Positions 10,103 to 50,752 of a stretch of 64,000 bases of DNA are shown in pieces; position 1 is the first letter of the stretch; each line of letters opens with the position of its first letter. This DNA is from Amycolatopsis sp. GM8. GTDB lineage: Bacteria; Actinomycetota; Actinomycetes; Mycobacteriales; Pseudonocardiaceae. The translations under genes were made by a program, and so were the position numbers. The notes beneath the pieces were generated by a model, which was not told the DNA's origin, searched no databases, and worked only from the letters and a program-made list of their open reading frames with translations. Location: positions 1-64,000 of the forward strand of contig NZ_JAJKFK010000004.1 of assembly GCF_021653975.1 (NCBI RefSeq). Direction: 5' to 3'.

Positions 10103-10103
10103 C

Positions 10104-28136: not shown

Positions 28137-28155
28137 CTATAGACGCGATCTATAG
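28137..28155. promoter_or_regulatory. LysR operator, autoregulatory (TAGA-N5-TCTA)
   Basis: CTATAGACGCGATCTATAG contains the perfect dyad TAGA-CGCGA-TCTA (28139-28151), which fits the LysR T-N11-A rule. It ends nine bases before the LysR start codon. Its reverse complement reads TATAGATCGCGTCTA and nearly equals the sites at 29097 and 50682. Confidence 0.75.
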
Positions 28156-28163
28156 GAGGATCG

Positions 28164-29102
28164 ATGACGGACCCGGGACCGCTGCGCAACCTCAATCTCA
28201 ACCTCATGTCCCATTTGGACGCGCTGCTGACCTTTCGCAGTGTCTCCAAGGCCGCGGACCATCTCGGGCTCAGCCAGCCCACGGTGTCTTCGGCGCTGCA
28301 GCGACTCCGGCGTCACTTCAAGGACGAACTCATCGTCCGGGACGGCCCGAGACCCGAGCTGACACCGTTGGCGGCCGAGTTGCTACCGCTGGCGACCGCG
28401 GCCCTGGGCGCCGCGGAACGGCTCTTCACGAGTACCACGATTTTCGACCCCCGGACTTCCACCCGCGAGTTCCGGCTTGTCGGTGGCGACTACTGGGTCG
28501 CCTCCGTGGGGGCCGCGTTCGCGGCGTCCGTCGCCGCCTCCGGCTCGCGCGTCCGGATCCGGTTCGGCAAACTCGGCTCCGGCCAGGCTGGCCGGATTCT
28601 CGACGTGCTGCGCACGGTGGACGGCATCCTGGCGCCGCATGGCGACTTCCGGGACCTGCCGCACGTGGACCTGTGCTCGGCGGAGTGGGTCTGCCTCGTC
28701 GACTCCGCCAATGCGCGGGTGGGTGACGAACTCACCCGCGCCGATCTCGCTTCGCTGCCGTGGGTCGCCGTCACCGGCGATTCCGGGCCGAACGCGCCGT
28801 TGTGGGAACCCCTTGCGCTGCGGCGGCTCCGGCAGGCCGGGATCGAGCCGAACATCGCGGTCGTCGTCGACTCCTATCTTGCCGTGCCGTGGTTCGTCGA
28901 AGGCACGGACCGGATCGCCATCGTCCACAAAGGAATGCTCGAGCGCTTCGGCGAGCGCAGGCGCCTGCGCGTTATGCGCTGCCCAGTCGACCTGGACCCG
29001 CTGCTGCTGGCGTTGTGGTGGCATCCCCAGTTCGGCGAAGACGGCGGCCATCGCTGGCTGCGTACCGAACTGCGCTCCGTCGCCGAGGGATTGCCGGTAT
29101 AG
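28164..29102 (+). CDS. LysR-family transcriptional regulator
   Basis: A 312-residue LysR regulator. The N-terminal winged helix-turn-helix includes SVSKAADHLGLSQPTVSSALQRLRRHF (about 24-50, given as two adjacent helices). It is followed by a two-lobe periplasmic-binding-type effector domain. It resembles the NodD/NahR/SyrM branch, whose effectors are often aromatic compounds. GGAGG precedes ATG 28164. Its last codons and TAG stop lie inside the operator of the downstream aldehyde dehydrogenase. It probably activates that gene and the distant Mo hydroxylase at 50752. Confidence 0.92.
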   Translation: MTDPGPLRNLNLNLMSHLDALLTFRSVSKAADHLGLSQPTVSSALQRLRRHFKDELIVRDGPRPELTPLAAELLPLATAALGAAERLFTSTTIFDPRTSTREFRLVGGDYWVASVGAAFAASVAASGSRVRIRFGKLGSGQAGRILDVLRTVDGILAPHGDFRDLPHVDLCSAEWVCLVDSANARVGDELTRADLASLPWVAVTGDSGPNAPLWEPLALRRLRQAGIEPNIAVVVDSYLAVPWFVEGTDRIAIVHKGMLERFGERRRLRVMRCPVDLDPLLLALWWHPQFGEDGGHRWLRTELRSVAEGLPV

Positions 29103-29167
29103 ATCGCGCCTAAGTGGACCATCGGCCGTTCGCCGTTCCGGTGCGGCACCGGCTGGGGACACGCTGG
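29097..29167 (+). promoter_or_regulatory. LysR operator plus conserved promoter block before the aldehyde dehydrogenase
   Basis: GTATAGATCGCGCCTAAG (29097-29114) carries TAGA-TCGCG-CCTA, one mismatch from the dyad before the LysR gene. The segment 29094-29167 aligns without net gaps to 50679-50752: 36 of the first 44 positions agree by my count, including ATCGGCCGTTCGC, and CACGCTGG falls exactly 66 bases from the start in both. Confidence 0.75.
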
Positions 29168-29189
29168 GGCCGACACCAAAGGAGGCGCC

Positions 29190-30680
29190 ATGACCGCAAC
29201 CCCGACCCGGCAGCTGATCCGAGTGCGCTGGTCGTCGACCAACGACGAGGACGCTTTCGACGTCCAGAACCCGGCGACGGGCGAGACGATCGCCGTCGTC
29301 CAGGGCGCGGGCCCCGGCGAGGTCGACGCGGCGGTGCGGGCGGCGCACGCCGGCCACCTGAAGTGGAAGGAGCGCCCGCCGCTCGAACGCGGCCGCTACC
29401 TGCATCGCATCGCCCAGGTCGTGCGAGAGCACGCTGACGAAATCGCGGCACTGGAAACGAGCGACAACGGCAAGCCGACGACGCAGGCGCGCAGCTTCGA
29501 TCTCGAAGCCGCGTCCGGGCTCTTCGAGATGTATGCGGGCATGATGGCGGCGCATCCGAGCGCGGCCACCAACAATGGACCGCTGCTCGACATCACCACG
29601 CTCGAGCCGTACGGGGTGATCGGCGCCATCGTGCCGTTCAACTGGCCGCCGAACCACACCGCCGGCAAGATCGCGCCGGCGCTCGCGATGGGCAACGGCG
29701 TCGTCCTCAAACCGCCGGAGCAGGCGCCGCTGTCGGTGCTGCGCATGGTCGAACTCATCCAGGAGGTCCTGCCCGACGACGTCGTGCAGGTCGTTCCCGG
29801 CCGCGGACCGGTCGGCGCCGCGGTGGCGCGCCACCCGCTGGTCCGGAAGATCTCGTTCACCGGGTCGCCCGAGACGGCCACCGCCGTGCTGAAGACCGCC
29901 GCGGACAATCTGACCCCGGCGCTGCTCGAACTGGGCGGCAAGAACCCGTTCGTCGTGTTCGACGACGTCGATCTGGACGAGGTCGTGCCGTGGATGGTGG
30001 AGGCGGCTTTCTTCAACCAGGGGGAGGCCTGCACGGCGGCCTCCCGTCTGCTGGTGCACGCGAGCATCTACGACGAGGTGGCGCGGCGGCTGGGGGCGGC
30101 GGTCTCCCGCCTGCGTGTGGGTGACGGCGCGAGCCCGGACACCCACGTCGGGCCGATGGTCACCGAAGCCCAGCGGAAGCGGGTACTGAACTACCTCGAC
30201 ATCGGGGTGGCCGAAGGGGCCGTCATCGCGGCACAGGCCGGCCTGCCCGATGACCCGCGCCTGTCCGGCGGCTACTTCGTGCGCCCGACCCTGCTCACCG
30301 GGGTCACCCCGGACATGCGGGTGGCGCAGGAGGAGATCTTCGGGCCGGTCACGGCCATGATCCGGTTCGAAGACGAGGCCGAGGCGATCAGCATCGCCAA
30401 CGGCACCGCGTTCGGTCTGGTGGCGAGTGTCTTCAGTCGCGACAACGGGCGCGCGATGCGGGTCAGCAACGCCATGCGCTGCGGGATCGTGTACGTCAAC
30501 CACTACAACCGCAAGTCGGTCGGAGTTCCCTTCGGTGGCGTCGGCGCGAGTGGGTACGGCCGGGAACACGCCCTGGAGACCTTGGGGGAGTTCGGGTTCA
30601 GCAAGAGCCTGCGCATCCCGAACGGGCTCGGTGAAATCCCTTCCTGGCCGCCGTCGCACGAGGTCGTCGCTGAGTCCTGA
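29190..30680 (+). CDS. Aldehyde dehydrogenase (NAD(P)-dependent)
   Basis: A 496-residue ALDH-superfamily enzyme oxidising an aldehyde to an acid. Motifs are PFNWPPNHTAGKIAPAL (about 149-165), the cofactor region FTGSPETA, the general base in LELGGKNPF (Glu about 248), the nucleophile in FNQGEACTAASR (Cys about 282) and the EEIFGPV block. It resembles benzaldehyde or betaine-type ALDHs. AAAGGAGGCGCC precedes ATG 29190. Its promoter carries the LysR site, so inducer-dependent expression is expected. Confidence 0.92.
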   Translation: MTATPTRQLIRVRWSSTNDEDAFDVQNPATGETIAVVQGAGPGEVDAAVRAAHAGHLKWKERPPLERGRYLHRIAQVVREHADEIAALETSDNGKPTTQARSFDLEAASGLFEMYAGMMAAHPSAATNNGPLLDITTLEPYGVIGAIVPFNWPPNHTAGKIAPALAMGNGVVLKPPEQAPLSVLRMVELIQEVLPDDVVQVVPGRGPVGAAVARHPLVRKISFTGSPETATAVLKTAADNLTPALLELGGKNPFVVFDDVDLDEVVPWMVEAAFFNQGEACTAASRLLVHASIYDEVARRLGAAVSRLRVGDGASPDTHVGPMVTEAQRKRVLNYLDIGVAEGAVIAAQAGLPDDPRLSGGYFVRPTLLTGVTPDMRVAQEEIFGPVTAMIRFEDEAEAISIANGTAFGLVASVFSRDNGRAMRVSNAMRCGIVYVNHYNRKSVGVPFGGVGASGYGREHALETLGEFGFSKSLRIPNGLGEIPSWPPSHEVVAES

Positions 30681-30696
30681 TTGCCGTCCGGCCAGA

Positions 30697-30718
30697 ACGT
30701 ATACTAAGATGGATACAC
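30697..30718 (+). promoter_or_regulatory. Promoter -10 TATACT and GTATAC-type operator before the MmsA-like gene
   Basis: ACGTATACTAAGATGGATACAC holds two GTATAC-like half-sites and a -10-like TATACT (30700-30705), 33 bases before the GTG start. It is one of four sites with the same layout (with 3738, 25384 and 34832). Confidence 0.55.
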
Positions 30719-30737
30719 CCGACGCGAAGGAGCGGTT

Positions 30738-32231
30738 GTGCCGACCATCAAACATTGGATCGCAGGCGAGACCGTCGCCGGCGAATCCGACCGGCGGGCC
30801 CCGGTCTTCGACCCCGCCACCGGCCGGCAGCAGGCGGAGGTCCTGCTCGCGTCCACTGTGGACGTGGACGCCGCCGTCTCGGCCGCCACACAGGCCTTCG
30901 AATCGTGGTCGCAGACTTCGCTCAGCCGGCGGTCCCGGATCTTGTTCTCCTTCCGCGAATTGCTGGCGCAGAAAGCCGGTGAGTTGGCGGCGGTGATCAC
31001 GAGCGAGCACGGCAAGGTGCTCAGTGACGCGCTCGGTGAGGTGCAGCGCGGCCAGGAGGTCGTCGAGTTCGCCTGTGGGATCCCCGCATTGCTGAAGGGG
31101 GAGTACTCCGACCAGGTGTCGACGAACGTCGATGTGTTCTCCTATCGGGAACCGCTGGGTGTCGTCGCGGGCATCACGCCCTTCAACTTCCCGGCGATGG
31201 TGCCGATGTGGATGTTCCCGATCGCCATCGCCTGCGGGAACACCTTCATCCTCAAGCCGAGCGAGCGTGACCCGTCCGTATCGATGATGATCGCCGAGCT
31301 CTGGAAGCGGGCCGGGCTGCCGGACGGCGTCTTCAATGTCGTTCACGGCGACAAGGAAGCGGTCGACGCGATCCTCGATTCGCCGGGCATCGCCGCCGTC
31401 TCGTTCGTGGGGTCGACTCCCATCGCCAAGTACATTCACGAGCGGGCCTCCGCCACCGGAAAGCGCGTGCAGGCGCTCGGGGGCGCCAAGAACCACGCCG
31501 TCGTCCTGCCGGATGCCGATCCCGAGTTCGTCTCCGATCACCTGTCCGCCGCGGCGTTCGGTTCCGCGGGCGAGCGGTGCATGGCCATCTCCGCGGCGGT
31601 GACGGTGGGCAGTTCCGCGGACCGGGTACTCGACAGCCTGAGCCGGAAAGCGCGCGAAGTTCGTGTGGGTGCCGGCAGTGACACCGGCAGCGACATGGGA
31701 CCTGTCGTCACTCGCGCGGCCCAGCAACGGATCCTGGGTCTCATCGATCGCGGCGAGGAGCAGGGCGCCAAGGTCGTTGTGGACGGACGAGGCCTGAGCG
31801 TGGCCGGGTATCCCGAGGGTTTCTGGGTCGGCCCGACCGTTCTCGACGGTGTGACCACCGGAATGGACGTCTACCGCGAAGAGATCTTCGGGCCGGTGCT
31901 GTCCGTCGTCCGGGCCGAATCGCTGGACGAGGCCATCGCTCTCGTCAACAGCAATCCCTATGGCAACGGAACAGCCATCTTCACCTCGAACGGCGCGGCC
32001 GCGCGGCGCTTCCAGCGTGGCGTTCGCGTCGGCATGATCGGCGTCAACGTCCCCGTTCCGGTGCCCATGGCGTACTACTCCTTCGGCGGCTGGAAGGACT
32101 CCCTGTTCGGGGACAAGCACGTCCACGGCCCCGAGGGCGTGAGCTTCTACACGCGCGCCAAGGTCGTCACGGCACGGTGGGAGAGCACCGGCACCACGGA
32201 GGCGAGCTTCGCCTTCCCCACGAGCAGCTAA
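30738..32231 (+). CDS. mmsA: CoA-acylating (methylmalonate-)semialdehyde dehydrogenase-like protein
   Basis: A 497-residue member of the MmsA branch of aldehyde dehydrogenases, which convert a semialdehyde and CoA to an acyl-CoA, with loss of CO2 for methylmalonate semialdehyde. Branch marks are FNFPAMVPMWMFPIAIACGNTF (split here over about 149-170), the replacement of the general-base glutamate region by QALGGAKNHAVVLPDAD, and the nucleophile in FGSAGERCMAIS (Cys about 281). Start GTG 30738 follows AAGGAG. It begins a three-gene unit with the CMD protein and formaldehyde dehydrogenase. The true semialdehyde may differ from that of valine or inositol breakdown. Confidence 0.88.
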   Translation: MPTIKHWIAGETVAGESDRRAPVFDPATGRQQAEVLLASTVDVDAAVSAATQAFESWSQTSLSRRSRILFSFRELLAQKAGELAAVITSEHGKVLSDALGEVQRGQEVVEFACGIPALLKGEYSDQVSTNVDVFSYREPLGVVAGITPFNFPAMVPMWMFPIAIACGNTFILKPSERDPSVSMMIAELWKRAGLPDGVFNVVHGDKEAVDAILDSPGIAAVSFVGSTPIAKYIHERASATGKRVQALGGAKNHAVVLPDADPEFVSDHLSAAAFGSAGERCMAISAAVTVGSSADRVLDSLSRKAREVRVGAGSDTGSDMGPVVTRAAQQRILGLIDRGEEQGAKVVVDGRGLSVAGYPEGFWVGPTVLDGVTTGMDVYREEIFGPVLSVVRAESLDEAIALVNSNPYGNGTAIFTSNGAAARRFQRGVRVGMIGVNVPVPVPMAYYSFGGWKDSLFGDKHVHGPEGVSFYTRAKVVTARWESTGTTEASFAFPTSS

Positions 32232-32253
32232 TCAACGAGAAAGTGCGGCGACT

Positions 32254-32634
32254 GTGGACGAACTGCTGAGACGGCGCACGAAGGAAACGGCGCACACGCT
32301 TTTCCACACCTTGCGGAATGGCGTCGGGTTCGAGACCTGGAAGCGTTTCGACAAGGACCTGGCGCGCGAGCTGAGCATGTTCTTCACCGGCAAGCTCTAC
32401 AGCCGGAACGTCATCTCGCAGAAGGAACGCGAGATGTGTGCGGTCGCCTCGCTCACGGTGCTCAATCGCCGGAACGAGTTGCGTGCGCATGTCCACGCGG
32501 CGCTGAACGTGGGCGCCACCCGGCAGGAGGTGGCCGAGGTGATCTTTCAGCAGGTGACCTATGGCGGGATGCCGGTGGTCGTGGAGGCGCTCGAAGTGCT
32601 GAAGGCCGTGCTGGACGAGTGCGGTGACTGGTAG
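32254..32634 (+). CDS. Carboxymuconolactone decarboxylase (CMD) family protein
   Basis: A 126-residue all-helical CMD-family protein. The core KEREMCAVASLTVLNR (about 57-72) and the H-x-N-x-G-type turn AHVHAALNVGATRQEVAEV (about 79-97), followed by YGGMPVVVEALE, match the gamma-carboxymuconolactone decarboxylase branch. It lacks the CxxC of AhpD peroxidases. It could decarboxylate or isomerise a ring-cleavage lactone. GTG 32254 is 22 bases after the MmsA-like gene, so it belongs to the same transcript. Confidence 0.85.
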   Translation: MDELLRRRTKETAHTLFHTLRNGVGFETWKRFDKDLARELSMFFTGKLYSRNVISQKEREMCAVASLTVLNRRNELRAHVHAALNVGATRQEVAEVIFQQVTYGGMPVVVEALEVLKAVLDECGDW

Positions 32635-32666
32635 GCCGTTGTCGGAGAGCGAATAGGAGTGCGCGC

Positions 32667-33887
32667 ATGACCAAGAACAGGGCAGTGGCCTACCAGGGTC
32701 CCGGAGTCGTGGAAGTGGTCGACACGGAGTTTCCGGCGTTCGAACTCAAGGACGGGCCCGGGGTCAATCCCGCCAATATCGGGCGCAAGGTCAACCACGG
32801 CGTCATTCTCAAGACGGTCGCCACCAACATCTGCGGCTCGGACCAGCACATGGTGCGCGGGCGCACGACCGCCCCGGTCGGCCTGGTGCTCGGGCACGAG
32901 ATCACCGGCGAGGTGGTCGAGGTCGGTCCCGATGTCGAGTTCCTCGCTGTGGGGGACATCGTGTCGGTCCCGTTCAACATCGCGTGCGGGCGCTGCCGCA
33001 ACTGCAAGGAGGGCAAGACCGGGATCTGCCTCAACGTCAACCCGGACCGGCCCGGCAGTGCCTACGGCTACGTCGACATGGGCGGCTGGGTCGGCGGCCA
33101 GGCGGAGTATGTTCTCGTGCCGTACGCGGATTGGAACGCCCCGAAGTTCCCCGACCGCGATCAGGCATTGGAGAAGATCCTCGATCTGACAATGCTTTCG
33201 GACATCTTCCCGACCGGCTTCCACGGCGCGGTGACTGCCGGTGTGGGTGTCGGGTCCACTGTGTACGTCGCGGGAGCCGGCCCGGTCGGTTTGGCCGCGG
33301 CCGCCTCCGCCCAGTTGCTCGGTGCCGCCGTGGTGATCGTCGGGGACCTCAACGAGGACCGGCTCGGGCAGGCCCGCAGCTTCGGTTGTGAGACCATCGA
33401 CGTCGGTGCCGGTTCTGTTCCCGATCAGCTCGAAGCGCTATTGGGAGTGCCTCATGTCGACGCGGGAATCGACGCGGTCGGTTTCGAAGCGCGGAGCCAG
33501 GGACACGGCGCCGGCGCCGTAGAGGCTCCCGCCACCGTCCTCAATGCACTGATGGCGGCCACCGCGGCCGGTGGCGCCATTGGCATCCCGGGTCTCTACG
33601 TCACCGACGATCCCGGTGCCGTCGACGAGGCGGCCAGGGCCGGCGCCCTCTCGCTCAGCCTCGGCACCGGCTGGGCGAAGTCACTGTCCTTCACCACCGG
33701 GCAATGCCCGGTCATGAAGTACAACCGGCAGCTCATGATGGCCATCCTGCACGACAAGGTGGAGATCGCGAAGGCGGTCAACGCCAAGCCGATCCCGCTG
33801 GAAGACGCGCCGCGCGGATACGCGGAGTTCGACGCCGGTGCCGCCACCAAGTACGTGCTCAATCCCAACGGGTATCTGCCGCTCTGA
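32667..33887 (+). CDS. fdhA: Glutathione-independent formaldehyde dehydrogenase / dismutase-type Zn enzyme
   Basis: A 406-residue zinc MDR enzyme closely matching FdhA of Pseudomonas putida, which oxidises formaldehyde with a tightly bound NAD. Diagnostic stretches are ELKDGPGVNPANIGRK (about 26-41), TNICGSDQHMVRGRT with the catalytic Cys, GHEITGEV, the structural Zn motif CGRCRNCKEGKTGIC (about 107-121) and VAGAGPVGLAAAASAQ. It ends the MmsA-CMD-FDH unit and overlaps the convergent XRE gene by 29 bases. It implies that formaldehyde, or a similar aldehyde, is released nearby, for example by P450 O-demethylation. Confidence 0.92.
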   Translation: MTKNRAVAYQGPGVVEVVDTEFPAFELKDGPGVNPANIGRKVNHGVILKTVATNICGSDQHMVRGRTTAPVGLVLGHEITGEVVEVGPDVEFLAVGDIVSVPFNIACGRCRNCKEGKTGICLNVNPDRPGSAYGYVDMGGWVGGQAEYVLVPYADWNAPKFPDRDQALEKILDLTMLSDIFPTGFHGAVTAGVGVGSTVYVAGAGPVGLAAAASAQLLGAAVVIVGDLNEDRLGQARSFGCETIDVGAGSVPDQLEALLGVPHVDAGIDAVGFEARSQGHGAGAVEAPATVLNALMAATAAGGAIGIPGLYVTDDPGAVDEAARAGALSLSLGTGWAKSLSFTTGQCPVMKYNRQLMMAILHDKVEIAKAVNAKPIPLEDAPRGYAEFDAGAATKYVLNPNGYLPL

Positions 33888-34749
33888 CCGAACTCGCGGG
33901 CCGTTCAGCGGCGATCATCGAGCCGAGCAGATCGAGCGCGTGTGCCGACGGCGAACCCGGCTCCGCGGTGTAGGTGACCAGCATCTGACCGGGCGAAGCC
34001 GGTGTCGTCCACGCGACATAGGTGAGATCGATGTCGCCGAGTTCGGGATGCCGCATGAGGTTGAGACCACTGGACTTCTCGAAGACGTGGTGCTCCGCCC
34101 AGAGCCGGCGGAACGTCTCACTGCGCACGGCCAGTTCCCCCACCAGCGCGGTCAGCGCGGGGTTGTCCGGGTCCTCGCCCGCGGTCATCCGCAGGATGCC
34201 GACGGTCCCGCGCGCGGACTCCTCCCAGTCGCGATGACGGGCCGCGAGTTCTTCGTCCAGGAACAGCAACCAGGCGTTGTTGCGTTCGTGATCAGGCCGG
34301 GCGGCGAAATCCGTGAACAACCCGCAAGCCAGGTCGTTCCAGCCGATGACCTGCATCGTGCGCGTCATGACGAGCGCGGGCACAGTGAGGGTTTCGAGCA
34401 GGTTCCGGGCCGGTTCGGACACCCGTTCCTCCACCACGCGGCGCCGCGCACGGCGTCGCGGATGAGCCAAGTGGTACAGGTGCTGCCGCTGGGTGTCGTC
34501 GAGCTGCAGGACGCGGGCGATCCCTTCGAGCATCGACTCCGACGGCCGTCCCCCTCGGCCCTGCTCGAGCCGCACGTAGTAGTCGGTGGACAGCCCGACC
34601 AGCGCGGCGACCTCCTCGCGGCGCAGCCCGGGAACGCGCTGGCGGCCGGTGTCGGGCAGTCCCGCGGCGGCCGGCGAGACAGCGGCTCGCCGCGCCTGCA
34701 GGAACTCGCCCAGCTCGGACTTGGATTCCGTCGGTTCGGACTTGCTCAT
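33859..34749 (-). CDS. XRE-family regulator with MmyB-like ligand domain
   Basis: A 296-residue regulator. The N-terminal helix-turn-helix includes GLRREEVAALVGLSTDYYVRLEQGR (about 42-66, as two helices) typical of actinobacterial MmyB-type proteins. The C-terminal PAS-like domain from about 115 starts LETLTVPALVMTRTMQVIGWN and probably binds a lipid or small hydrophobic ligand. ATG 34749 has almost no leader or ribosome site, so a leaderless message is possible. It is divergent from the MFS gene at 34877 and likely represses it. Confidence 0.9.
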   Translation of the reverse strand: MSKSEPTESKSELGEFLQARRAAVSPAAAGLPDTGRQRVPGLRREEVAALVGLSTDYYVRLEQGRGGRPSESMLEGIARVLQLDDTQRQHLYHLAHPRRRARRRVVEERVSEPARNLLETLTVPALVMTRTMQVIGWNDLACGLFTDFAARPDHERNNAWLLFLDEELAARHRDWEESARGTVGILRMTAGEDPDNPALTALVGELAVRSETFRRLWAEHHVFEKSSGLNLMRHPELGDIDLTYVAWTTPASPGQMLVTYTAEPGSPSAHALDLLGSMIAAERPASSVRAADTRWD

Positions 34750-34792
34750 GTATCCATAGTGCCGCGAAAACGTCGATCGAGGGTGGGCCTGT

Positions 34793-34805
34793 GAGTACCC
34801 AGGTT
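34793..34805. promoter_or_regulatory. 13-bp candidate XRE operator shared with the first MFS gene
   Basis: GAGTACCCAGGTT is identical to the reverse complement of 3004-3016, which lies in the inverted repeat before the MFS gene at 2926. Here it lies 72 bases before the second MFS start and 44 bases before the XRE start. These are the only two copies I noticed in the window. Confidence 0.6.
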
Positions 34806-34831
34806 GTGTGAACACCTTGATCGCCGCTGGT

Positions 34832-34852
34832 ATGTGTATACTAATCTGTACT
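34832..34852 (+). promoter_or_regulatory. Promoter -10 TATACT with GTATAC-type operator before the MFS gene
   Basis: ATGTGTATACTAATCTGTACT contains TATACT (34837-34842) and two GTATAC-like half-sites. This would put the pump under both the FCD and XRE regulators. Confidence 0.5.
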
Positions 34853-34876
34853 CAAAATGCGAGGTCATGGAGACAC

Positions 34877-36229: not shown

Positions 36230-36236
36230 AGCGTGC

Positions 36237-37382: not shown

Positions 37383-37433
37383 GGAAACGATGCTAGTGGC
37401 AGTGCGCGAAACAATCGCCGATCGCACCGATTC

Positions 37434-37454
37434 TGTCCAAGTTTGAGACACACG
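37434..37454. promoter_or_regulatory. Candidate activator site TGTC-N9-GACA between the divergent acyl-CoA dehydrogenase and SDR genes
   Basis: TGTCCAAGTTTGAGACACACG matches TGTCCAGTGATGAGACACTCG at 40372-40392 at 16 of 21 positions by my alignment, with the same TGTC-N9-GACA spacing. Both copies flank the AcoR-type regulator gene. Confidence 0.65.
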
Positions 37455-37533
37455 ATCCTTCCGCGTCGCACCTATCATCCTCAGCACGGTCAATGAAGTG
37501 GAGCAAGGTATTCGACGCAGAGAGGCGGCGGGT

Positions 37534-38430: not shown

Positions 38431-38443
38431 CCTCCCCGGGAAG

Positions 38444-38481
38444 CGCTCACCCAGAGTGACGTGTGCCGCTCTGGGTGAGCG
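38444..38481 (+). terminator. Terminator-like hairpin after the SDR gene
   Basis: A 13-bp perfect stem (38444-38456 with 38469-38481, GCTCACCCAGAG and its complement) encloses a 12-base loop. There is no T-run, so termination is likely but not certain. Confidence 0.6.
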
Positions 38482-38530
38482 GGCTCGTGGGCCTTGACCT
38501 GGAGCGGACGCGCGTGCTTATGTCGCGGAG

Positions 38531-38548: not shown

Positions 38549-38575
38549 GGCCAACGAAGGTCTGCGGGGTGGTGG

Positions 38576-40333: not shown

Positions 40334-40371
40334 CACCAGGCCCGATCACGCCTGACCCCGGTGAACCTTCG

Positions 40372-40392
40372 TGTCCAGTGATGAGACACTCG
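40372..40392. promoter_or_regulatory. Candidate activator site TGTC-N9-GACA before the hydrolase operon
   Basis: TGTCCAGTGATGAGACACTCG; with the preceding G it forms the dyad GTGTC-N9-GACAC (40371-40389), about 92 bases before the operon start. It is the clearest copy of the motif shared with 37434-37454. Confidence 0.65.
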
Positions 40393-40482
40393 TACCCCTT
40401 CTGGCGCACCTATTCTTTGGTCAGCGAGGGCCTCAGCGCCCCGAATCGACACTCATCCAAGAACTGCGCCTGAAGGGACATT

Positions 40483-41409: not shown

Positions 41410-41419
41410 GGCGCCCACG

Positions 41420-43329: not shown

Positions 43330-44438
43330 TCGAGATTTCCGCAAGTGACTTCGCGAAGGAGTTCGAGGCGGCGGCCGCCCGGCTGCTGGACGTTCAGATG
43401 GCCCGCACCCCGATTCGCGAACAGCTGGAACAGTCGGGCTGGAGCGAGCCACTGTGGACTTCGGTCGTCGACGCGGGCTGGCTGGATGTCATGCTCCCGC
43501 AGCACCTCGGGGGACTCGGTCTGGGGATCGGCGACGTCTCGGGGATTTTCACCGCCGCCGGCCGATACCTGTTGCCGGGCCCGCTCTTCGACAATGCCGT
43601 CGCCGTACCGCTCGCCGTGGGGCAGGCGACCAGAGACAAGCACTTGACGAACCTGATCGCCGGCAGGAAGCGAATCTCGCTGGCTGACGGCGCGGCCAGT
43701 GGCCAGGCCGGCGACAGCAGGCCGGTTGTTCGCGACGGCCGTCTGTTCGGGTCGGTCGATCTGGTCCGGCTCGGGGGTGCCGCCGACCATTTTCTGGTGG
43801 TCGTCGAGGAGCCGGAACCGACGCTCGTGATGGCCGATGCCGGCATGCCGGGAGTGAGCCTGCACCGGCGCCGGACGTTCGACTCCGCGGCGGAGCACGC
43901 GCGGATCGTTTTCGACGGTGCCGAGTTCGAGCCGCTTTTCGAGAACTGTAAAGGCGATACGGCGCGAGCGGCGGCGGTCGTCGCGGAACTGCGTGACGCC
44001 GCACGTCTGTTGTTCTCGTGTGAGATAGCGGGGACCGCGCGGCATCTGCTGGACAGTGCCGTTCTCTATGCGAAGGAACGAGAACAGTTCGGCCGGCCGA
44101 TCGGAGCCTTTCAGGCCATTCAGCATCTCCTGGCCACTCTGGCGACCAGGCAGATAACGCTGGAGGCGGCCTGCGAGCAGGGGCTCAATTCATGGGATTC
44201 GGAACCCGCTAGCCGTTATGTCGCCGCCACCACGGCCAAGGCGATCGCGGCCGAGGTCGGCCGTGTGGTGGGGGAGGGCGCTCTTCAGGTGCACGGCGGC
44301 ATCGCCTTCACCCGCGAATTCCCGCTCCACCGATGGCACGTGCACGTTCTCGGCCTGCAAGGCCGCTACGGCGACCAGCACACGATCGCGGCGGAACTGG
44401 GGAACCTTCTCGTCGGCAAGGAATTCGCGTTGTGGTAA
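43326..44438 (+). CDS. Acyl-CoA dehydrogenase, small partner subunit (second pair)
   Basis: A 370-residue divergent dehydrogenase. The N-terminal half is poorly conserved and has no EPDAGSD motif. The C-terminal half keeps the FAD contact REQFGRPIGAFQAIQH (about 250-265) and LQVHGGIAFTREFPLHRW (about 318-335). The end lacks the usual base region. GTG 43326 overlaps the stop of the large subunit. Co-expression with that gene implies an obligate complex. Confidence 0.86.
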   Translation: MIEISASDFAKEFEAAAARLLDVQMARTPIREQLEQSGWSEPLWTSVVDAGWLDVMLPQHLGGLGLGIGDVSGIFTAAGRYLLPGPLFDNAVAVPLAVGQATRDKHLTNLIAGRKRISLADGAASGQAGDSRPVVRDGRLFGSVDLVRLGGAADHFLVVVEEPEPTLVMADAGMPGVSLHRRRTFDSAAEHARIVFDGAEFEPLFENCKGDTARAAAVVAELRDAARLLFSCEIAGTARHLLDSAVLYAKEREQFGRPIGAFQAIQHLLATLATRQITLEAACEQGLNSWDSEPASRYVAATTAKAIAAEVGRVVGEGALQVHGGIAFTREFPLHRWHVHVLGLQGRYGDQHTIAAELGNLLVGKEFALW

Positions 44439-44480
44439 TTGATCGAGTCGAGAACTCTACAAGGGAGTGGAGGAACAATC

Positions 44481-45569
44481 GTGATCGAGTTCGGCTTGTT
44501 GTACGACTGGCGCAACCCGCCGCGTCCGGAATGGTTCACCCCGTGGCCGCAGTTCTACCGGGAAGGCTTCGAGCACATCGCCGAGATGGAACGCCACGGT
44601 GTGGACATCATCAGTTTCGGCGAGCATCACGGGGATGTGGACGGCTTCAATCCGCACATCGTGGAATCGCTGGTGATGGCGGCGGAGCGGACCAGCCGGG
44701 TGTCACTCGGCACGAACATCATCCAACTGCCCTACTACCACCCGGTGATGCTCGCCGAACGGCTGGCGTTCGTCGACATCATTTCCGGCGGCCGGCTGAA
44801 GGCATTGGGGCTGGGCCAGATCGGGTCTCCGTGGGACGTCGAGATGGAAATGCTCGGCGTGAACACGAAACACCGGCCGAGCCTGCTGGAAGAGGGGCTC
44901 GAACTGCTGCACCGCTGCTGGACCGAAGACGAGCCGTTCGACTACGAGGGAAAGCGGTACAAGGGCAAGTACATCACGATAACGCCCAAGCCGTTGCAGA
45001 AACCGAGTCCTCGCATGCAGGTCATCGGTGTGAGTGAGCAGTCGGCCGACCGCGTCGCGCGGATGGGATTCGATGTGGGCGGGCCCGGCGGCTTCTTCGA
45101 CGGCTTGACCTCGAAGGAGCGGTGGGACGCCTGGTTGCCGATGTGGCAGAACGTGTGCGCCCGCCACGAACGCGACCCCGACGATGTGACCATCTCGGTG
45201 TTCGGGCAGTGCTTCGTCACCGACGATCCCGAGCGTGCCGCCGCACTGCACGGCGACGCGGTCGAATACTGCTTGACGTGGGAGTCGCGACCCTCGACCC
45301 ACGTGTACTCGGACGAGAGCCTGCGGCACGGCGGTGACAAGGGACTGATCACTGGTCTGGACCTGCGGAAGACCTTCATGACACCGGAGGAGGCGATCGC
45401 CGAATTCCGCGCCACCCACGAGAAGCGGGCCCCTGACCAGTTCCTGCTGATCGCGACGCGTCCGGGGATGACGTGGGAACAGGCTGCCGAGTACCACGGC
45501 AACTTCATCGACAAGGTCCTTCCCCATCTGCAGGACCTGCCGACCCGTCGCTCCTCGGGCAGTCGATGA
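44481..45569 (+). CDS. Luciferase-like monooxygenase (flavin or F420 dependent)
   Basis: A 362-residue TIM-barrel protein of the bacterial luciferase superfamily. Marks are FGLLYDWRNPP at the N-terminus, ISFGEHHGDVDGFNP (about 45-59), LGTNIIQLPYYHPVMLAERLAFVD in two blocks, and SGGRLKALGLGQ (about 104-115). FMN-dependent monooxygenase or F420-dependent oxidoreductase activity are both possible; the LxxYYHP form resembles FMN monooxygenases acting on terpenes or ketones. GTG 44481 has GGAGG seven bases upstream. Its stop overlaps the ligase start (ATGA). Confidence 0.87.
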   Translation: MIEFGLLYDWRNPPRPEWFTPWPQFYREGFEHIAEMERHGVDIISFGEHHGDVDGFNPHIVESLVMAAERTSRVSLGTNIIQLPYYHPVMLAERLAFVDIISGGRLKALGLGQIGSPWDVEMEMLGVNTKHRPSLLEEGLELLHRCWTEDEPFDYEGKRYKGKYITITPKPLQKPSPRMQVIGVSEQSADRVARMGFDVGGPGGFFDGLTSKERWDAWLPMWQNVCARHERDPDDVTISVFGQCFVTDDPERAAALHGDAVEYCLTWESRPSTHVYSDESLRHGGDKGLITGLDLRKTFMTPEEAIAEFRATHEKRAPDQFLLIATRPGMTWEQAAEYHGNFIDKVLPHLQDLPTRRSSGSR

Positions 45570-47227
45570 CCGCGATGCCGGCCGGGCGGACGAGGGCCCG
45601 GACAAGATACGCCGAAGAGGGCCATTTGACCGGCGAGCTGCTGGACCGGCAGCTCGAACAGGCAGCGGCGGCGTGTGGTTCGCGGACGGCCATCGTCGAT
45701 GGTGCGCATAGGCTGACTTACCACGAGATGTTCCAGCGGGTCGAGAGCCTGGCGCATGCCTTGCGGGGCCGGGGAATCGGGCCCGGTGATGTCGTCTCGT
45801 TCCAGCTGCCGAACTGGTGGGAGGCGTCGGTCGTCCACTTCGCCACGATCCGGATCGGTGCGATCAGCAATCCGCTCGTCCCGATCCTGCGGCATCGGGA
45901 GCTGCGGTTCATGCTGCAGCAGGCAGGCTCGAAGATCGTGTTCGTTCCCTCGACGTTCCGGGGGTTCGATCACGCCGCCCTGGCGAGCAGGCTCTGTGAC
46001 GAGGTGGCCACTCTCGAAGCGATGGTGACAGTGCGAGGTGCGCGCGACCAGGCGCTGACGTTCGACGGCCTGCTCGGTGAGGGGACACGGTTAGCGGAGT
46101 CGAACGGTGGGGGAGAGCCTGCCCCGGTGAGGTCCGCGGACGATCCCGTCCTGCTGCTGTACACATCCGGCACGGAATCCCGGCCCAAAGGCGTCGTGCA
46201 CAGTCACAACGGCCTCGTGTACGAGAACCGGACCATGATCGAGCGGTACTCACTGTCCGAGCGGGACGCGGTGTTCATGCCGTCGCCGGTGACGCATATT
46301 TCGGGCCTCCTCTACGGAATCCACCTTCCGGTCGCACTGCGGACGAAGGTCGCCCTGCTCGATCAATGGCGGCCCGAGCAGGGTCGTGACCTCATCAGAA
46401 CCGAGAACTGCACGTTCACCGTGGGCGCCACACCGTTCCTCAGCGGCCTCGTCGACGTCGGGCCGGAGAACGGCGCCGGCACTTCGCTGCGCTATTTCGT
46501 GTGTGGTGGGGCGGACGTGCCGCCACAGCTAATTCGGCTTGCCGACGAGAAGCTGAAATGTGTCGCGGTGCGCGCCTACGGTTCCACCGAGTTTCCGACG
46601 CTGTCCGCGGGTGGCCCCGGTGACTCCGTGGAACGCCGTGCGACCACCGACGGGCAGATCCTCGGCGCGGCTGAGGCACGCGTCCTGACCGGCGACGACA
46701 CGGTGGCGCCACCGGGTGTGGTCGGGGACCTGTACGTCCGTGGCCCGGAGGCCTTCCTCGGATATCTGGACGCGTCGGACACCGACGCGACGATCGGCCC
46801 CGACGACTGGATCAGCACCGGTGATCAGGCCGTCATCGATGCCGGCGGTTACGTCCGCATCACGGGCCGGACGAAGGACATCATCCTTCGCGGCGGCGAG
46901 AACATCAGCGCGAAAGAGGTCGAGGAGATCCTCGGCGAGCATCCGGCCATCCGGGAGGTCGCCGTTGTCGCGATGCCCGACAAAGTGCTCACCGAGAAGG
47001 CGTGCGCCTTTGTGGTGCCCCGCCCCGGCGCCACGCTCGACCTCGGCGAGCTGGTCCGACACCTGGAGTCGACCAATACGGCGCGCCAGAAATTCCCGGA
47101 GCGGCTGGAACTCGTCGAGTCACTTCCCAAGACGGCCAGCGGAAAGGTCCAGAAGGTGGTCCTCCGGCAGATCGTGAAAGAACGCCTCGCCGCGGAGCAG
47201 CGAGCCGCATTGAGCACTGACAGTTGA
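45566..47227 (+). CDS. AMP-dependent acyl-CoA ligase
   Basis: A 553-residue adenylate-forming ligase that activates an acid with ATP and CoA. Core motifs are LLYTSGTESRPKGV (P-loop A3, about 194-207), YGSTEFP (A5), DWISTGDQAV and ITGRTKDIILRGGENISAKEVEE (A7-A8, split) and the final catalytic lysine in LPKTASGKVQK (about 523-533). It looks like a cyclohexanecarboxylate- or fatty-acid-type CoA ligase, with no thiolation domain nearby. It overlaps the luciferase-like gene by ATGA and probably feeds the beta-oxidation genes upstream. Confidence 0.9.
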   Translation: MTAMPAGRTRARTRYAEEGHLTGELLDRQLEQAAAACGSRTAIVDGAHRLTYHEMFQRVESLAHALRGRGIGPGDVVSFQLPNWWEASVVHFATIRIGAISNPLVPILRHRELRFMLQQAGSKIVFVPSTFRGFDHAALASRLCDEVATLEAMVTVRGARDQALTFDGLLGEGTRLAESNGGGEPAPVRSADDPVLLLYTSGTESRPKGVVHSHNGLVYENRTMIERYSLSERDAVFMPSPVTHISGLLYGIHLPVALRTKVALLDQWRPEQGRDLIRTENCTFTVGATPFLSGLVDVGPENGAGTSLRYFVCGGADVPPQLIRLADEKLKCVAVRAYGSTEFPTLSAGGPGDSVERRATTDGQILGAAEARVLTGDDTVAPPGVVGDLYVRGPEAFLGYLDASDTDATIGPDDWISTGDQAVIDAGGYVRITGRTKDIILRGGENISAKEVEEILGEHPAIREVAVVAMPDKVLTEKACAFVVPRPGATLDLGELVRHLESTNTARQKFPERLELVESLPKTASGKVQKVVLRQIVKERLAAEQRAALSTDS

Positions 47228-47251
47228 TCCGACCCACGATAAGGGGAAACG

Positions 47252-48997
47252 ATGAATCAGGGGCCAGAGCCGGCCGTCGAGATGAGGATCCTGCACGACG
47301 AGCCGATTCCGATGGACGACGGCATCGCATTGCGGGCCAATGTGTTCCTGCCCCCGGCCGATGGTGCGTATCCGGTGGTCCTCGCGGTCACGAACTACGC
47401 GAAGGATCTCCCTTTCTGCCAGGGTTACCCGGACGCCTGGGAAAACGCCCTCGAGACCGCGCCCGAGCTCGCCGAGCACACCTCCGGTAAATACATTTCC
47501 TTCGAGGCCGTCGACCCCGAGAAATGGGTGCCGCACGGGTACGCGGTCGTGGTCGTGGACGCGCGTGGCATTGGGAGGTCACCGGGTGTCGTCAACAGCT
47601 TTTCGCCGCGGGAGGCGCAGGACTATTACGACGCGATCGAGTGGGCGGCGGCGCAGCCATGGTCCACCGGCAAGATCGGCACGATGGGAATGTCCTACCT
47701 CGCGGTGTCCCAGTGGCTCGTCGCCGGCCTCCAGCCGCCGCACCACGGCGGGATGATCGCGTGGGAAGCGTGGAACGACATGCTCCGCGGACTCAGCTAT
47801 CACGGCGGGATTCCCTCCACGTTCTATCGAAGCTGGTCCAATTCCCAGGTGCGGTCCGTTCAGCATGGTCTGGGCACACGCGGATACCGCAACCAATTCA
47901 CCGGCAGGCTCATTTCGGGTGACGTGGAGCTTTCCCAGGAGGAACTGGACGCGAACATCGTGGACCCCTATGTGCAGGTGATGGAGCATCCGCTCGACGA
48001 CGGTTTCTACGACCAGCGCCGGGCCCGGTGGGACAAGATCACGGTCCCGCTGCTGTCCGTGGGCAGCTGGGGCTCGGTGGGCGTGCACCTGCGGGGCAAC
48101 TCGGAGGGTTTCATGCATGCCGCGTCGACCCAGAAGTGGCTGGTGATGCGCCAGTCCCAGGGCACCTTCGCTGGTATGTACACCAACGAGGGGGTCGAAC
48201 TGCAACGACGGTTCTTCGACTTCGTGCTCAAGGGCGAGGGCGATTTCGCGCTGACCCAGCCCAAGGTGCGGCTCGATATCCGTAGCGCACGGGACGAGGT
48301 CCTGGAACAGCGCGCCGAGAACGAGTGGCCGCTGGCGCGCACGGAGTGGACGAAGCTTTACCTCGACGTCGGCAATCTCGAGCTGACCGAGAAGCAGCCC
48401 GATGAGGGGACCGCGAACTACCAGGGATTCAGCAAGCAGGGCCTGACCTTCCTCACTCCGCCGATGGAACGCGACACGGAGATCCTCGGTCCGCAAGCGG
48501 CCAAGCTGTGGGCTTCCTCGTCCACCACGGACGCGGACCTCTTCCTGAGCCTCAGGCTGTTCGACCCGGACGGGCAGGAGGTCCTGTTCCACGGCATGGC
48601 GGACCCGCAGGTGCCGGTCACGAACGGCTGGTTGCGGGCTTCGCAGCGCAAACTGGACGAGTCGAAGACACTCCCGTTCCGTCCTTACCTGAGTCACGAC
48701 ACCGTCAGGCCGCTCTTTCCCGGCAAGGTCTATGAGCTCGATGTCGAGATCTGGCCCACGAGCGTTGTGGTGCCACAGGGCTATCGGCTCGGTCTGATGG
48801 TCGCGGGTGTGGATTTCGATCACGGCCGTGAGTCCGTCATGTGGGGCAAGTCGGGCCTCGAATTGCGCGGTTCTTCGATCTGGCCGCACGTCGACCCGCT
48901 CCGCCGGCCGGCAGCCGTCTACGACAACGAGGTGACCCTTTACGGTGGCGGTAGCCGGGCGTCCTATTTCCTCGCCGCGATCGTTCCCCCGAAGTAG
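47252..48997 (+). CDS. CocE/NonD family hydrolase with altered triad
   Basis: A 581-residue protein with an alpha/beta-hydrolase domain, helical cap and C-terminal jelly roll (X-Pro dipeptidyl-peptidase C-like, about 370-575). The N-terminal part has VVVDARGIGRSPG and the nucleophile elbow GTMGMSYLAVS (Ser about 150). The position where CocE-type enzymes have a G-W-x-D acid reads VGSWGSVGVH, and the following His-containing loop reads RQSQGTFAGMYT with no His. Either other residues serve, or activity is changed. AAGGGG precedes ATG 47252. Relatives cleave bulky esters or amides. Confidence 0.82.
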   Translation: MNQGPEPAVEMRILHDEPIPMDDGIALRANVFLPPADGAYPVVLAVTNYAKDLPFCQGYPDAWENALETAPELAEHTSGKYISFEAVDPEKWVPHGYAVVVVDARGIGRSPGVVNSFSPREAQDYYDAIEWAAAQPWSTGKIGTMGMSYLAVSQWLVAGLQPPHHGGMIAWEAWNDMLRGLSYHGGIPSTFYRSWSNSQVRSVQHGLGTRGYRNQFTGRLISGDVELSQEELDANIVDPYVQVMEHPLDDGFYDQRRARWDKITVPLLSVGSWGSVGVHLRGNSEGFMHAASTQKWLVMRQSQGTFAGMYTNEGVELQRRFFDFVLKGEGDFALTQPKVRLDIRSARDEVLEQRAENEWPLARTEWTKLYLDVGNLELTEKQPDEGTANYQGFSKQGLTFLTPPMERDTEILGPQAAKLWASSSTTDADLFLSLRLFDPDGQEVLFHGMADPQVPVTNGWLRASQRKLDESKTLPFRPYLSHDTVRPLFPGKVYELDVEIWPTSVVVPQGYRLGLMVAGVDFDHGRESVMWGKSGLELRGSSIWPHVDPLRRPAAVYDNEVTLYGGGSRASYFLAAIVPPK

Positions 48998-49004
48998 GCG
49001 AGCG

Positions 49005-50603
49005 ATGGTTGGTGACGAGTTCCGTGCTCATCCGTCCGGCCTCCCCGGTGCCTGCGTCGCGGAGCTGCTGTGCGATCGGCATGACGCGGATTCCGTGGCG
49101 TTCAAGGTGATCACCCGGGACGGTTCGACGGTCGACGTGACGTTCGGCCGGCTCCGGGAACGCTCGGAGCGCCTTGCGGCCGGCCTGGCCTCGCTCGGGG
49201 TCGGCCCAGGGGACCGGGTCGCGACGCTGATGTCCAAGGGCGTGGATCTGGTCACGACGCAGCTCGCGGTCTGGCGGCTCGGCGCGGTGTATCTGCCGCT
49301 CTTCACCGCCTTCGGCGCCGGGGCGATAGGTGATCGCCTCCGTCAGGCGAACGCCAAGGTGGTCGTGTGCGACGAGCCGGAACGCCACAAGCTCGAACAG
49401 CCGTCGTGGACGGTGGTGAACACGGGGGAGGTCGTTCGCGACAGGGACGTCCGGTTCGCCGATCTGCTCGGCTTTCCCGCCGCCACGGCCCCGGTGGCTG
49501 TGGGACCGGACGGCACGATGATGGTGTTGTATACCTCGGGCACCACCGGCACGCCGAAAGGTGTGCCGGTGCCGGTCCGGGCACTCGCTTCGTTCGAGTG
49601 CTACTTCCGTTACGGGCTGGGCGTTTCGGATGACGACGTCTACTGGAACGCGGCCGATCCGGGCTGGGCCTACGGACTGTATTACTCGATCATCGCGCCG
49701 CTGCTGGCGGGCACGTGCTCGATCCTGGTCTCCGGCAAGTTCGCCGTCGAGGACACCTGGCGGATGCTGTCCGAATACGGCGTGACCAATTTCGCCGCCG
49801 CGCCCACGGTCTTTCGAGCCTTGCGTGCGTCGACCGGTGCCCACGGAGCCCTCGCCCTGCGGCGCGTGTCGAGCGCCGGCGAGCCCCTCAATCCCGATGT
49901 CGTGGAATGGTCGCGAAGGGAATTGGGGGTGGCGATTCACGACCATTACGGTCAGACGGAGCTGGGCATGGTCCTCGGCAATCACCATCATCCCGCCGTG
50001 CCGGGCGAGATCAAGCCCGGGAGTATGGGGCAGTCGCTGCCCGGCTGGACGGCAGAGGTGCTCGCGAATGACCGGGACGTGGTTCTCGGCGCGGGCCGGC
50101 TCGGCCGGCTGGCCATCGACGTGGCCGCGAGCCCGCTGATGTGGTTCGACGGGTATCTCGACCGGCCCGAGGCGACAGCCGAACGATTCAGCGCCGACCG
50201 CCGCTGGTATCTGACGGGAGACCTCGCCCAACGCGACGAGGAGGGCTTTTTCTTTTTCTCGTCGCGGGACGACGACCTCATCATCATGGCCGGTTACCGG
50301 ATCGGTCCGTTCGACATCGAGTCGGTGCTCATCAGTCATCCCTTGGTCGCGGAGGCCGCCTGCGTCGCGGCGGCCGATGACCTCCGGGGCGAGGTGATCG
50401 AGGCCTTCGTCGTCCTGCGAGCGGCGGCCGAACCGTCCGGCGACCTGGCCGAGGATCTCCAGGAACTGGTGCGGAACCGATATGGGGCGCATGCGTACCC
50501 ACGCCGGGTGCACTTCGTCGCGGACCTGCCGAAGACCCCCAGCGGCAAAGTCCAGCGGGCGGAGCTCCGCAACCGGACGGCGGCCCGGCGGACGTCGGGT
50601 TGA
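49005..50603 (+). CDS. Acyl-CoA synthetase (medium-chain/acetyl-type)
   Basis: A 532-residue adenylate-forming ligase of the MACS/Acs-like branch. Motifs are VLYTSGTTGTPKGV (about 174-187), the WNAADPGWAYGLYYSI segment typical of medium-chain ligases (about 212-227), HYGQTELGM (A5), RWYLTGDLAQRDEEG, RIGPFDIESVL and the C-terminal LPKTPSGKVQR (about 510-520). It differs clearly from the ligase at 45566. ATG 49005 is seven bases after the CocE gene. It ends the long operon. Two ligases in one operon suggest two acids are activated at different stages. Confidence 0.9.
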   Translation: MVGDEFRAHPSGLPGACVAELLCDRHDADSVAFKVITRDGSTVDVTFGRLRERSERLAAGLASLGVGPGDRVATLMSKGVDLVTTQLAVWRLGAVYLPLFTAFGAGAIGDRLRQANAKVVVCDEPERHKLEQPSWTVVNTGEVVRDRDVRFADLLGFPAATAPVAVGPDGTMMVLYTSGTTGTPKGVPVPVRALASFECYFRYGLGVSDDDVYWNAADPGWAYGLYYSIIAPLLAGTCSILVSGKFAVEDTWRMLSEYGVTNFAAAPTVFRALRASTGAHGALALRRVSSAGEPLNPDVVEWSRRELGVAIHDHYGQTELGMVLGNHHHPAVPGEIKPGSMGQSLPGWTAEVLANDRDVVLGAGRLGRLAIDVAASPLMWFDGYLDRPEATAERFSADRRWYLTGDLAQRDEEGFFFFSSRDDDLIIMAGYRIGPFDIESVLISHPLVAEAACVAAADDLRGEVIEAFVVLRAAAEPSGDLAEDLQELVRNRYGAHAYPRRVHFVADLPKTPSGKVQRAELRNRTAARRTSG

Positions 50604-50681
50604 GTACGCACACTTCTTTCCGCGTCGGCAGGCGGACTGTTCCCCGCCGCCGCCGAACGCATCGCCGTGGCCGACCTTCCG

Positions 50682-50752
50682 GTATAGATTGCGTCGAAGT
50701 CCCGCATCGGCCGTTCGCGGTTTCCCGTCCGCAGGCGGCTAAGGCACGCTGG
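50682..50752 (+). promoter_or_regulatory. LysR operator plus conserved promoter block before the second Mo hydroxylase
   Basis: GTATAGATTGCGTCGAAG (50682-50699) carries TAGA-TTGCG-TCGA, one mismatch from the TAGA-N5-TCTA dyad. The block 50679-50752 aligns with 29094-29167 and ends at the GTG start, so the message may be leaderless or nearly so. Confidence 0.75.

Follow-up and report, generated by a model that had tools for sequence, protein, structure and literature searches.

A putative LysR regulon with three matching operator sites in a catabolic gene cluster of Amycolatopsis sp. GM8

Genes and operator sites of the cluster

The gene cluster described here lies on contig NZ_JAJKFK010000004.1 of Amycolatopsis sp. 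GM8 (NCBI RefSeq assembly GCF_021653975.1; genome of 8,157,730 bases), of which positions 1 to 64,000 were analysed as one stretch of 64,000 nt, referred to as the window. It carries a gene for a LysR-type regulator and three matching operator sites: one between this gene and an amidohydrolase gene, one in the promoter of an aldehyde dehydrogenase (ALDH) gene and one, 21 kb further on, in the promoter of the genes for a molybdenum (Mo) hydroxylase. We consider it very probable that this one local LysR regulates the three promoters via TATAGA-N5-TCTATA dyads. The genes and sites concerned are the following:

27137-28063, minus strand: amidohydrolase (PF04909, Amidohydro_2; Pfam 1e-25), proposed target of operator 1
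28136-28156, unstranded: operator 1 dyad CCTATAGA-N5-TCTATAGG, between the amidohydrolase gene and lysR
28140-28154, minus strand: operator 1 15-mer TATAGATCGCGTCTA
28164-29102, plus strand: LysR-type regulator (Pfam HTH_1 and LysR_substrate)
29098-29112, plus strand: operator 2 in the ALDH promoter, 15-mer TATAGATCGCGCCTA
29098-29114, plus strand: operator 2 dyad TATAGATCGCGCCTAAG, like a recognition binding site (RBS), from 15-mer, matrix and covariance scoring
29190-30680, plus strand: ALDH (PF00171, Pfam), proposed target of operator 2, linked to LysR in relatives
30738-32231, plus strand: coenzyme A-acylating methylmalonate-semialdehyde dehydrogenase (MMSDH; NCBIfam TIGR01722, above cut-off)
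50683-50697, plus strand: operator 3 in the Fe-S/Mo hydroxylase promoter, 15-mer TATAGATTGCGTCGA
50683-50699, plus strand: operator 3 dyad TATAGATTGCGTCGAAG, top window match to profiles made without the window sites
50752-51234, plus strand: 2Fe-2S subunit of the Mo hydroxylase (Pfam), likely start ATG 50758 (column 76 of the promoter alignment below)
51231-53333, plus strand: molybdopterin-binding large subunit (Pfam MoCoBD_1/2), second gene of the proposed operon

The three 15-mers and their agreement with TAGA-N5-TCTA, exact at the lysR site and with one mismatch each at the ALDH and Mo sites, stand in the window as an earlier note on this DNA had given them. Since this core occurs 6 times in the window at up to one mismatch, compared to a mean of 1.9 and a maximum of 5 in shuffled sequences, it is weak evidence alone. 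The degenerate 15-mer TATAGATNGCGNCNA, which was fitted to the three sites, has 3 matches in the window at up to one mismatch versus a shuffle mean of 0.07, and none of 100 shuffles reached 3. The telling point is the lack of further perfect copies: in the whole genome, perfect copies occur only at these three sites. At up to one mismatch, the pattern occurs at 10 places in the genome, and so does the reversed control pattern, which puts the 7 additional places at chance level.

Operator 1, read in the shared TATAGAT orientation, faces the amidohydrolase gene, which is divergent from lysR, so that the three proposed targets are the amidohydrolase, the ALDH and the Mo hydroxylase. The dyad noted earlier in front of lysR stands where it had been placed, but the divergent gene to which it points had not been counted as a target. 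Operator 1 also overlaps the likely Shine-Dalgarno sequence AGGAGG of lysR (28154-28159) by three bases and is perhaps autoregulatory as well.

The regulator contains an N-terminal HTH_1 (PF00126, 2.6e-13) and a C-terminal LysR_substrate domain (PF03466, 2.9e-12), both above the curated cut-offs. The nearest solved structure to the amidohydrolase is 5-carboxyvanillate decarboxylase (5e-26), and the protein resembles carboxyvanillate and resorcylate decarboxylases. The ALDH mRNA would have a leader with AGGAGG, and the MMSDH gene, starting 57 bp past the ALDH gene, is possibly co-transcribed with it. The start of the large Mo subunit at 51231 is our choice within an open reading frame that opens at 50892. 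Further genes in the window include a glutathione-independent formaldehyde dehydrogenase (32667-33887), which together with the decarboxylase-like amidohydrolase hints at methoxy-aromatic breakdown as the substrate route, too weakly for a claim. Another, first Mo hydroxylase (large and flavin adenine dinucleotide (FAD) subunits, 12706-15995) has no copy of the 15-mer and is directly preceded by ATP-binding cassette transporter genes for a permease, an ATPase and a periplasmic binding protein (9017-12583).

Operators and promoter layout among relatives

Homologues of the regulator and the ALDH were collected from other genomes. Among 390 genomes of the family, of which the 5 best candidates per genome were scored, only the own genome has a close LysR orthologue at E 1e-76, and of two contig scans, one with LysR and one with ALDH, neither confirmed a close orthologue. 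At E 1e-60, LysR homologues are present in 10 of the 19 genomes of the genus (own included), the others being 41-46% identical. Homologues of the ALDH were found with 67-72% identity in 7 other genomes (8 loci) out of 386 of the family and with 64-69% identity in 7 others out of 394 genomes of the class. The comparison set consists of 22 loci (denoted by L and a number), namely 15 genomic ALDH loci and 7 plasmid loci, 4 of the latter taken from 20 LysR matches listed (677 records matched) and 3 from 15 ALDH matches listed (3397 records matched). Nine loci combine the ALDH with a LysR homologue (39-47% identity), 10 have the ALDH and no LysR by tblastn at 1e-12, and 3 have the LysR only.

The dyad goes with the LysR. 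At up to one mismatch, ATAGA-N5-TCTAT has 14 sites in the nine loci with ALDH and LysR (177 kb) and is present in eight of them, L044 being the one without; it has no site in the 10 ALDH loci without LysR (163 kb) and one in the three plasmid loci with LysR and no ALDH (51 kb). This amounts to 15 sites in 22 loci versus 0.35 in shuffles, and the 14 sites in 177 kb compare to about one place per Mb in the whole own genome; the Fisher value for the loci is 1.2e-4 and takes no account of their kinship. Genes adjoining the sites include PF04909 amidohydrolases and ALDH, and in Rhodococcus opacus one site lies between genes for a short-chain dehydrogenase/reductase and a fumarylacetoacetate hydrolase. 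At one operator of L051, the amidohydrolase frame (7313-7786) is short (157 aa) with a partial Pfam match, and a full frame is present in the near-identical L049. L066 (near 9074) and L067 (near 7748), with ALDH and no LysR found nearby, have another dyad in front of the ALDH gene, TATCACC..GGTGAT, which is followed at 22 bp by CATCAG.

When 32 LysR proteins are placed on a tree, those nine that have ATAGA dyads require 1 change (branch support 87/86), compared to a mean of 6.6 in shuffles, and none of 500 shuffles was as low as 1. The nearest row to the window LysR is a plasmid LysR of R. opacus (48%); this joins two long branches and was flagged as possibly false.

Beyond the dyad, the promoters share a layout that played no part in finding the sites. 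For this analysis, 17 promoters (14 of relatives plus the three of the window) were aligned at the dyad and read towards the target gene, the orientation being picked site by site so as to show the layout. T3 and A15 of the LysR motif T-N11-A are present in 17/17. A CATnG half-site follows 22 bp past the left half of the dyad (A24 and T25 in 15/17 each), but was not seen at the window amidohydrolase promoter. TTCC stands at columns 39-42 in 13 of the 14 relatives' sites without gaps, and in all 14 with one gap in L047 4969; in the Mo promoter it is shifted downstream by one base, and in the window amidohydrolase promoter TACC takes its place. The pattern nAnnnT, noticed by eye prior to counting, begins at column 62 or 63 in 16/17 promoters versus 8% at shifted places. 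The predicted -10 would put the predicted transcript start at about column 74-75 and the centre of the dyad (column 9) at -65/-66. For the window, the following elements are predicted, including half-sites like an activation binding site (ABS):

28088-28093, minus strand: amidohydrolase predicted -10, CACACT (columns 62-67)
28111-28116, minus strand: amidohydrolase predicted -35 region, TACCGC (columns 39-44), a weak match
29120-29124, plus strand: putative ABS-like half-site of ALDH, CATCG, 22 bp past the left half of the dyad
29136-29141, plus strand: ALDH predicted -35 region, TTCCGG (columns 39-44)
29160-29165, plus strand: ALDH predicted -10, CACGCT (columns 63-68), predicted start at about 29172
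50705-50709, plus strand: putative ABS-like half-site of Mo, CATCG
50722-50725, plus strand: Mo predicted -35 core, TTCC, shifted downstream by one base relative to ALDH
50745-50750, plus strand: Mo predicted -10, CACGCT, predicted transcript start at about 50757

Six seemingly likely promoters were picked for inspection, and five of them have an in-frame start codon at column 74-76, namely those of the window Fe-S gene (ATG 50758), L048, L049 (twice) and L051, whose transcripts would be leaderless; the promoter of the short frame in L051 has no start codon at these columns. Whether GTG 50752 might be a leaderless start had been asked before. It is instead ATG 50758 that stands at the predicted start site, and the Mo Fe-S gene likely begins there, leaderless or nearly so.

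Because the background of the covariance model R1 (see below) seems to us ill-suited to GC-rich DNA, a weight matrix with GC-rich background was added. Its 12 sites all come from relatives, with none taken from the window and with the near-copies of L051 left out. With this matrix, the three window promoters rank 1 to 3 of 127,910 positions, with 22.9 bits for Mo, then 12.0 and 8.0, and 6.5 for the fourth position. With the dyad part alone, Mo ranks 8th, ALDH 29th and the amidohydrolase 2nd; beyond the dyad (columns 18-46), Mo is 3rd and ALDH 84th. Two covariance models were built, R1 without the window sites and a second one on all 17 sites. In the own genome, the 17-site model, with the window sites in its training set and scored on 150 of 2117 first-look candidates, returned the three sites at 1.3e-5, 1.8e-4 and 1.6e-3 and the next match at 1.04 in 8.16 Mb. 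Nine other genomes gave 30 matches at E 1 or below, 14 below 0.01 and 16 weaker. Of the 14, 13 are located at the module, and the remaining one (G010:C73) is next to a different LysR gene and a FAD-binding oxidoreductase gene; 12 were in the training set, the new finds being L048 10337, in front of an amidohydrolase gene, and G010:C73:51203. Two of the nine genomes, with ALDH and no linked LysR, gave nothing below 0.3.

Shorter patterns were also counted in the own genome. ATAGA-N5-TCKAT at up to one mismatch was judged non-specific because of 172 strand-matches versus 74 for the reversed control. ATAGA-N5-TCTAT at up to one mismatch occurs at 8 places (about 1 per Mb), 7 of them outside the window, and its 16 strand-matches compare to 28 for the reversed control. 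Of these 7, the three that match ATAGA-N5-TCKAT exactly (L077, L078, L080) lack both TTCC and CAT in register; L078 has nAnnnT in one orientation.

The regulon model and its alternatives

The sites, their layout, their co-occurrence with the LysR and with its branch of the tree, and their near-uniqueness in the genome come directly out of the computation. Binding, activation, start sites, inducer and order of events are what we infer, in the following form. The LysR protein (28164-29102) would bind TATAGA-N5-TCTATA and weaker forms of it at three places and would thus control the amidohydrolase promoter (plus, in the shared divergent region, its own gene), the ALDH promoter (perhaps including MMSDH) and the Fe-S/Mo operon 21 kb off. 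The layout would be that of a classical LysR activator: the dyad would be centred near -65/-66, a weaker CATnG half-site would follow 22 bp closer to the promoter, and 17-18 bp would separate a -35 that contains TTCC from a -10 of the form nAnnnT. A LysR tetramer would hold both sites, and binding of an inducer would lead to activation of transcription; at lysR itself, where the dyad overlaps the ribosome-binding site, binding could be repressive. In this lineage, the Mo operon would have been added. Comparison supports such a system well, and it would be of an ordinary kind, a local LysR regulon with apparently classical recognition and activation sites. Of the proposal in the earlier note, the analysis supports one LysR, its matching T-N11-A sites and a joint regulon of ALDH and Mo hydroxylase.

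Several results weigh against this model. The relatives' sites were located using the dyad of the window, which makes the matrix ranking circular for the dyad part, and the relatives do not count as independent cases, with L049 and L051 as near copies. They are also distant: the best LysR homologues have 46-48% identity, and the comparison as a whole is one of 39-48% homologues. The ALDH and Mo dyads of the window have two mismatches to ATAGA-N5-TCTAT, such that a search at up to one mismatch finds the lysR dyad only. With the window-free model R1, the Mo site is the sole supported one (E 0.006); the ALDH site was matched on the other strand (0.66), and the lysR dyad scored 1.8. Beyond the dyad, the amidohydrolase promoter ranks 15,156th, so that it is the dyad which carries this target. 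L044 and L053, which have no site, fall on the ATAGA branch of the LysR tree, and L047 site 4969 is without a -10, as the only exception for nAnnnT, and without a clear target.

If the sites served another regulator, such as a LysR paralogue or a sigma factor, the proximity of lysR would be due to chance. The genome does encode a paralogue with 41% identity (G000:C1:1209823), and we read TATAGAT as resembling a -10 hexamer; the dyad, however, is present or absent together with the linked LysR (8/9 versus 0/10 loci) and follows the LysR-tree branch, the -10 signal lies outside the dyad at columns 62-68, and a site of this kind is absent from L029, the locus of the paralogue (best score -1.0), which makes this explanation highly improbable. 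We regard it as only slightly less improbable that the LysR controls the amidohydrolase and ALDH genes only, with the Mo match being chance or vestigial. Such a restriction would agree with the absence of the site from all 13 homologous Mo loci and with the two mismatches of the Mo dyad to the relatives' form, but with the window-free matrix nothing in the window fits the full layout better than the Mo promoter (22.9 versus 12.0 and 8.0 bits), which moreover is 3rd of 127,910 positions beyond the dyad and has a start codon at its predicted transcript start.

How the Mo operon came under the proposed three-promoter control is a separate matter. Homologues of its large subunit were found at E 1e-200 in 13 other genomes out of 386, with 54-73% identity; in these 13 loci (66 kb in total), model R2 finds nothing at E 1 or below and the dyad is absent. 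In the two closest ones (71-73%), of which some 39 kb each were inspected, there is neither a dyad nor a homologue of the module's LysR or ALDH at 1e-20. L138 has one match (6304) to the letter-free scaffold described below, 13 kb from the Mo genes. The absence of the site from 13 Mo loci indicates that the operator accompanies the regulator rather than the enzyme, and the Mo operon probably joined the regulon in this lineage.

The ALDH and Mo promoters had been noted to align for 74 bp, and a recount reproduced this, with agreement at 36 of the first 44 positions, 15 of the last 30 and 51 of 74 in total, both stretches having CACGCTGG at offset 66. No other window position exceeds 39/74 for the block. 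A BLAST search of the own genome with 29085-29190 found only the query itself and 50679-50752 (76%, E 2.7e-6). The block is accordingly not common in the genome, which has no further perfect 15-mer, block pair or model match below E 1. The block may have come about when the ALDH promoter was recently duplicated to a place in front of the Mo operon, its likeness stemming from copying and the regulation following from it. Agreement at 18 of the 26 non-consensus columns within 1-44 (2.6e-5 by chance), GGCCGTTCGC common to both promoters, 18 of 36 columns alike at 45-80, the highest of nine within-genome pairs (8-18), and a probable gain of the site, given the 13 Mo loci without it, all favour copying. 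Counted in the same register over columns 1-44, however, the window pair agrees at 33/44, and the amidohydrolase/ALDH promoter pair of L046 is equally alike (35/44; 18/26 non-consensus), with 31/44 in L045; shared constraint can thus yield such similarity. We therefore hold a copying event to be somewhat doubtful; as an origin of the Mo promoter, it would also be compatible with regulation by the LysR. Of the earlier view that the block was kept or copied for regulation, the regulatory part agrees with the same layout in relatives, whereas duplication is not demonstrable.

The layout extends to LysR genes with other half-sites. Nine of them (L019, L020, L023, L024, L026, L027, L028, L031 and L032) keep the scaffold, with TTCC in register in 9/9 and CAT in 7/9, while ATCAG-N5-CTGAT is exact in 4/9 and has 1-4 mismatches in 5/9; on the tree, eight of them cluster and L031 falls elsewhere. 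A letter-free search (symmetry, T-N11-A, CAT, TTCC) gave 26 matches versus 0.33 expected in 538 kb, with rules derived from the same loci and with the L021/L045 and L025/L046 sites counted twice. The helix-turn-helix triplet is QPT in all nine ATAGA LysRs and in L044 and L053; the other nine have QPA (8) or QPS (1). According to a published study (PMC12609908), the T of T-N11-A is contacted by residue 30, which in BenM and CbnR is a proline; we read this residue as the proline of QPT. The correlation of Thr/Ala with the half-site may come down to a single change on the tree and is a lead rather than a code. It is conceivable, albeit with less than even chances, lowered by the count of only 4/9 exact sister dyads, that this actinobacterial LysR branch has one rigid scaffold in which mainly the five-base half-site varies by clade (ATAGA here, ATCAG or similar in a sister group, different letters in isolated cases), a recognition-helix residue changing in step. 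Further scaffold LysR loci are L110 (near 540 and 1501) and L054 (near 6462 and 11483), with half-sites ATCGA and ATTCG/ATTTG, respectively. As to neighbouring genes, the TAG stop codon of lysR (29100-29102) sits inside operator 2, where it is the TAG of the half-site, as in L046 (11582-11584) and L045 (6698-6700); in L064 and L052, the lysR stop immediately precedes the operator.

For this catabolic cluster, we propose a regulator with three targets and a promoter layout that can be tested. New are this particular module, the revision of its targets, the prediction that the Mo operon is leaderless and the half-site lead. The cluster is an example of a Mo hydroxylase operon possibly joining an existing regulon, and the related LysR/operator pairs are material for working out DNA specificity. 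If the scaffold and half-site code were true, LysR specificity would be partly readable from sequence, and catabolic operons like that of the Mo hydroxylase could be plugged into a regulon via an acquired 70-bp module.

Comparison with known LysR systems

Among the open-licence PMC papers listed, judged by title and the start of the abstract, none concerned this LysR/amidohydrolase/ALDH module or its operator. Carbon monoxide (CO) dehydrogenase is a molybdenum hydroxylase. CutR, which regulates the CO dehydrogenase of Mycobacterium sp. JC1 (PMC12609908), is likewise a LysR-type regulator of a Mo hydroxylase operon, with dyads in front of the enzyme and regulator genes and a dyad at the end of a preceding gene. 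CutR differs in its dyad TTAAG-n6-CTTAA (T-n12-A), its dimeric state and the finding of no ABS, whereas the present system has T-N11-A, an ABS-like half-site and two additional enzyme targets. The best-scoring NCBIfam model for the window LysR is BsrA (NF050187), with 103.7 against a cut-off of 480. BsrA of Pseudomonas aeruginosa prefers the motif NAGTAGACNNGTCTACTN, which contains TAGA and TCTA as here, and is reported to have 765 bound regions, in contrast to the three sites found here (PMC8407307). MmsR of Pseudomonas denitrificans (PMC6441110) is LysR-type as well and acts from operators O1/O2 on a methylmalonate-semialdehyde dehydrogenase gene, a target family also present here behind the ALDH gene, but its operator is AATGTGCAA-N15-TTGCACATC instead of TATAGA-N5-TCTATA. 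With regard to geometry, about -65 is a frequent place for LysR recognition sites (PMC8407307), and in Rhodococcus equi the T-N11-A dyad of VirR spans -74 to -58, with another protected region, which is not a palindrome, further downstream (PMC11724031). The VirR-icgA system, an activator with its promoter in an actinobacterium (PMC11724031), has a different function, and its comparison with the layout predicted here is one of geometry.

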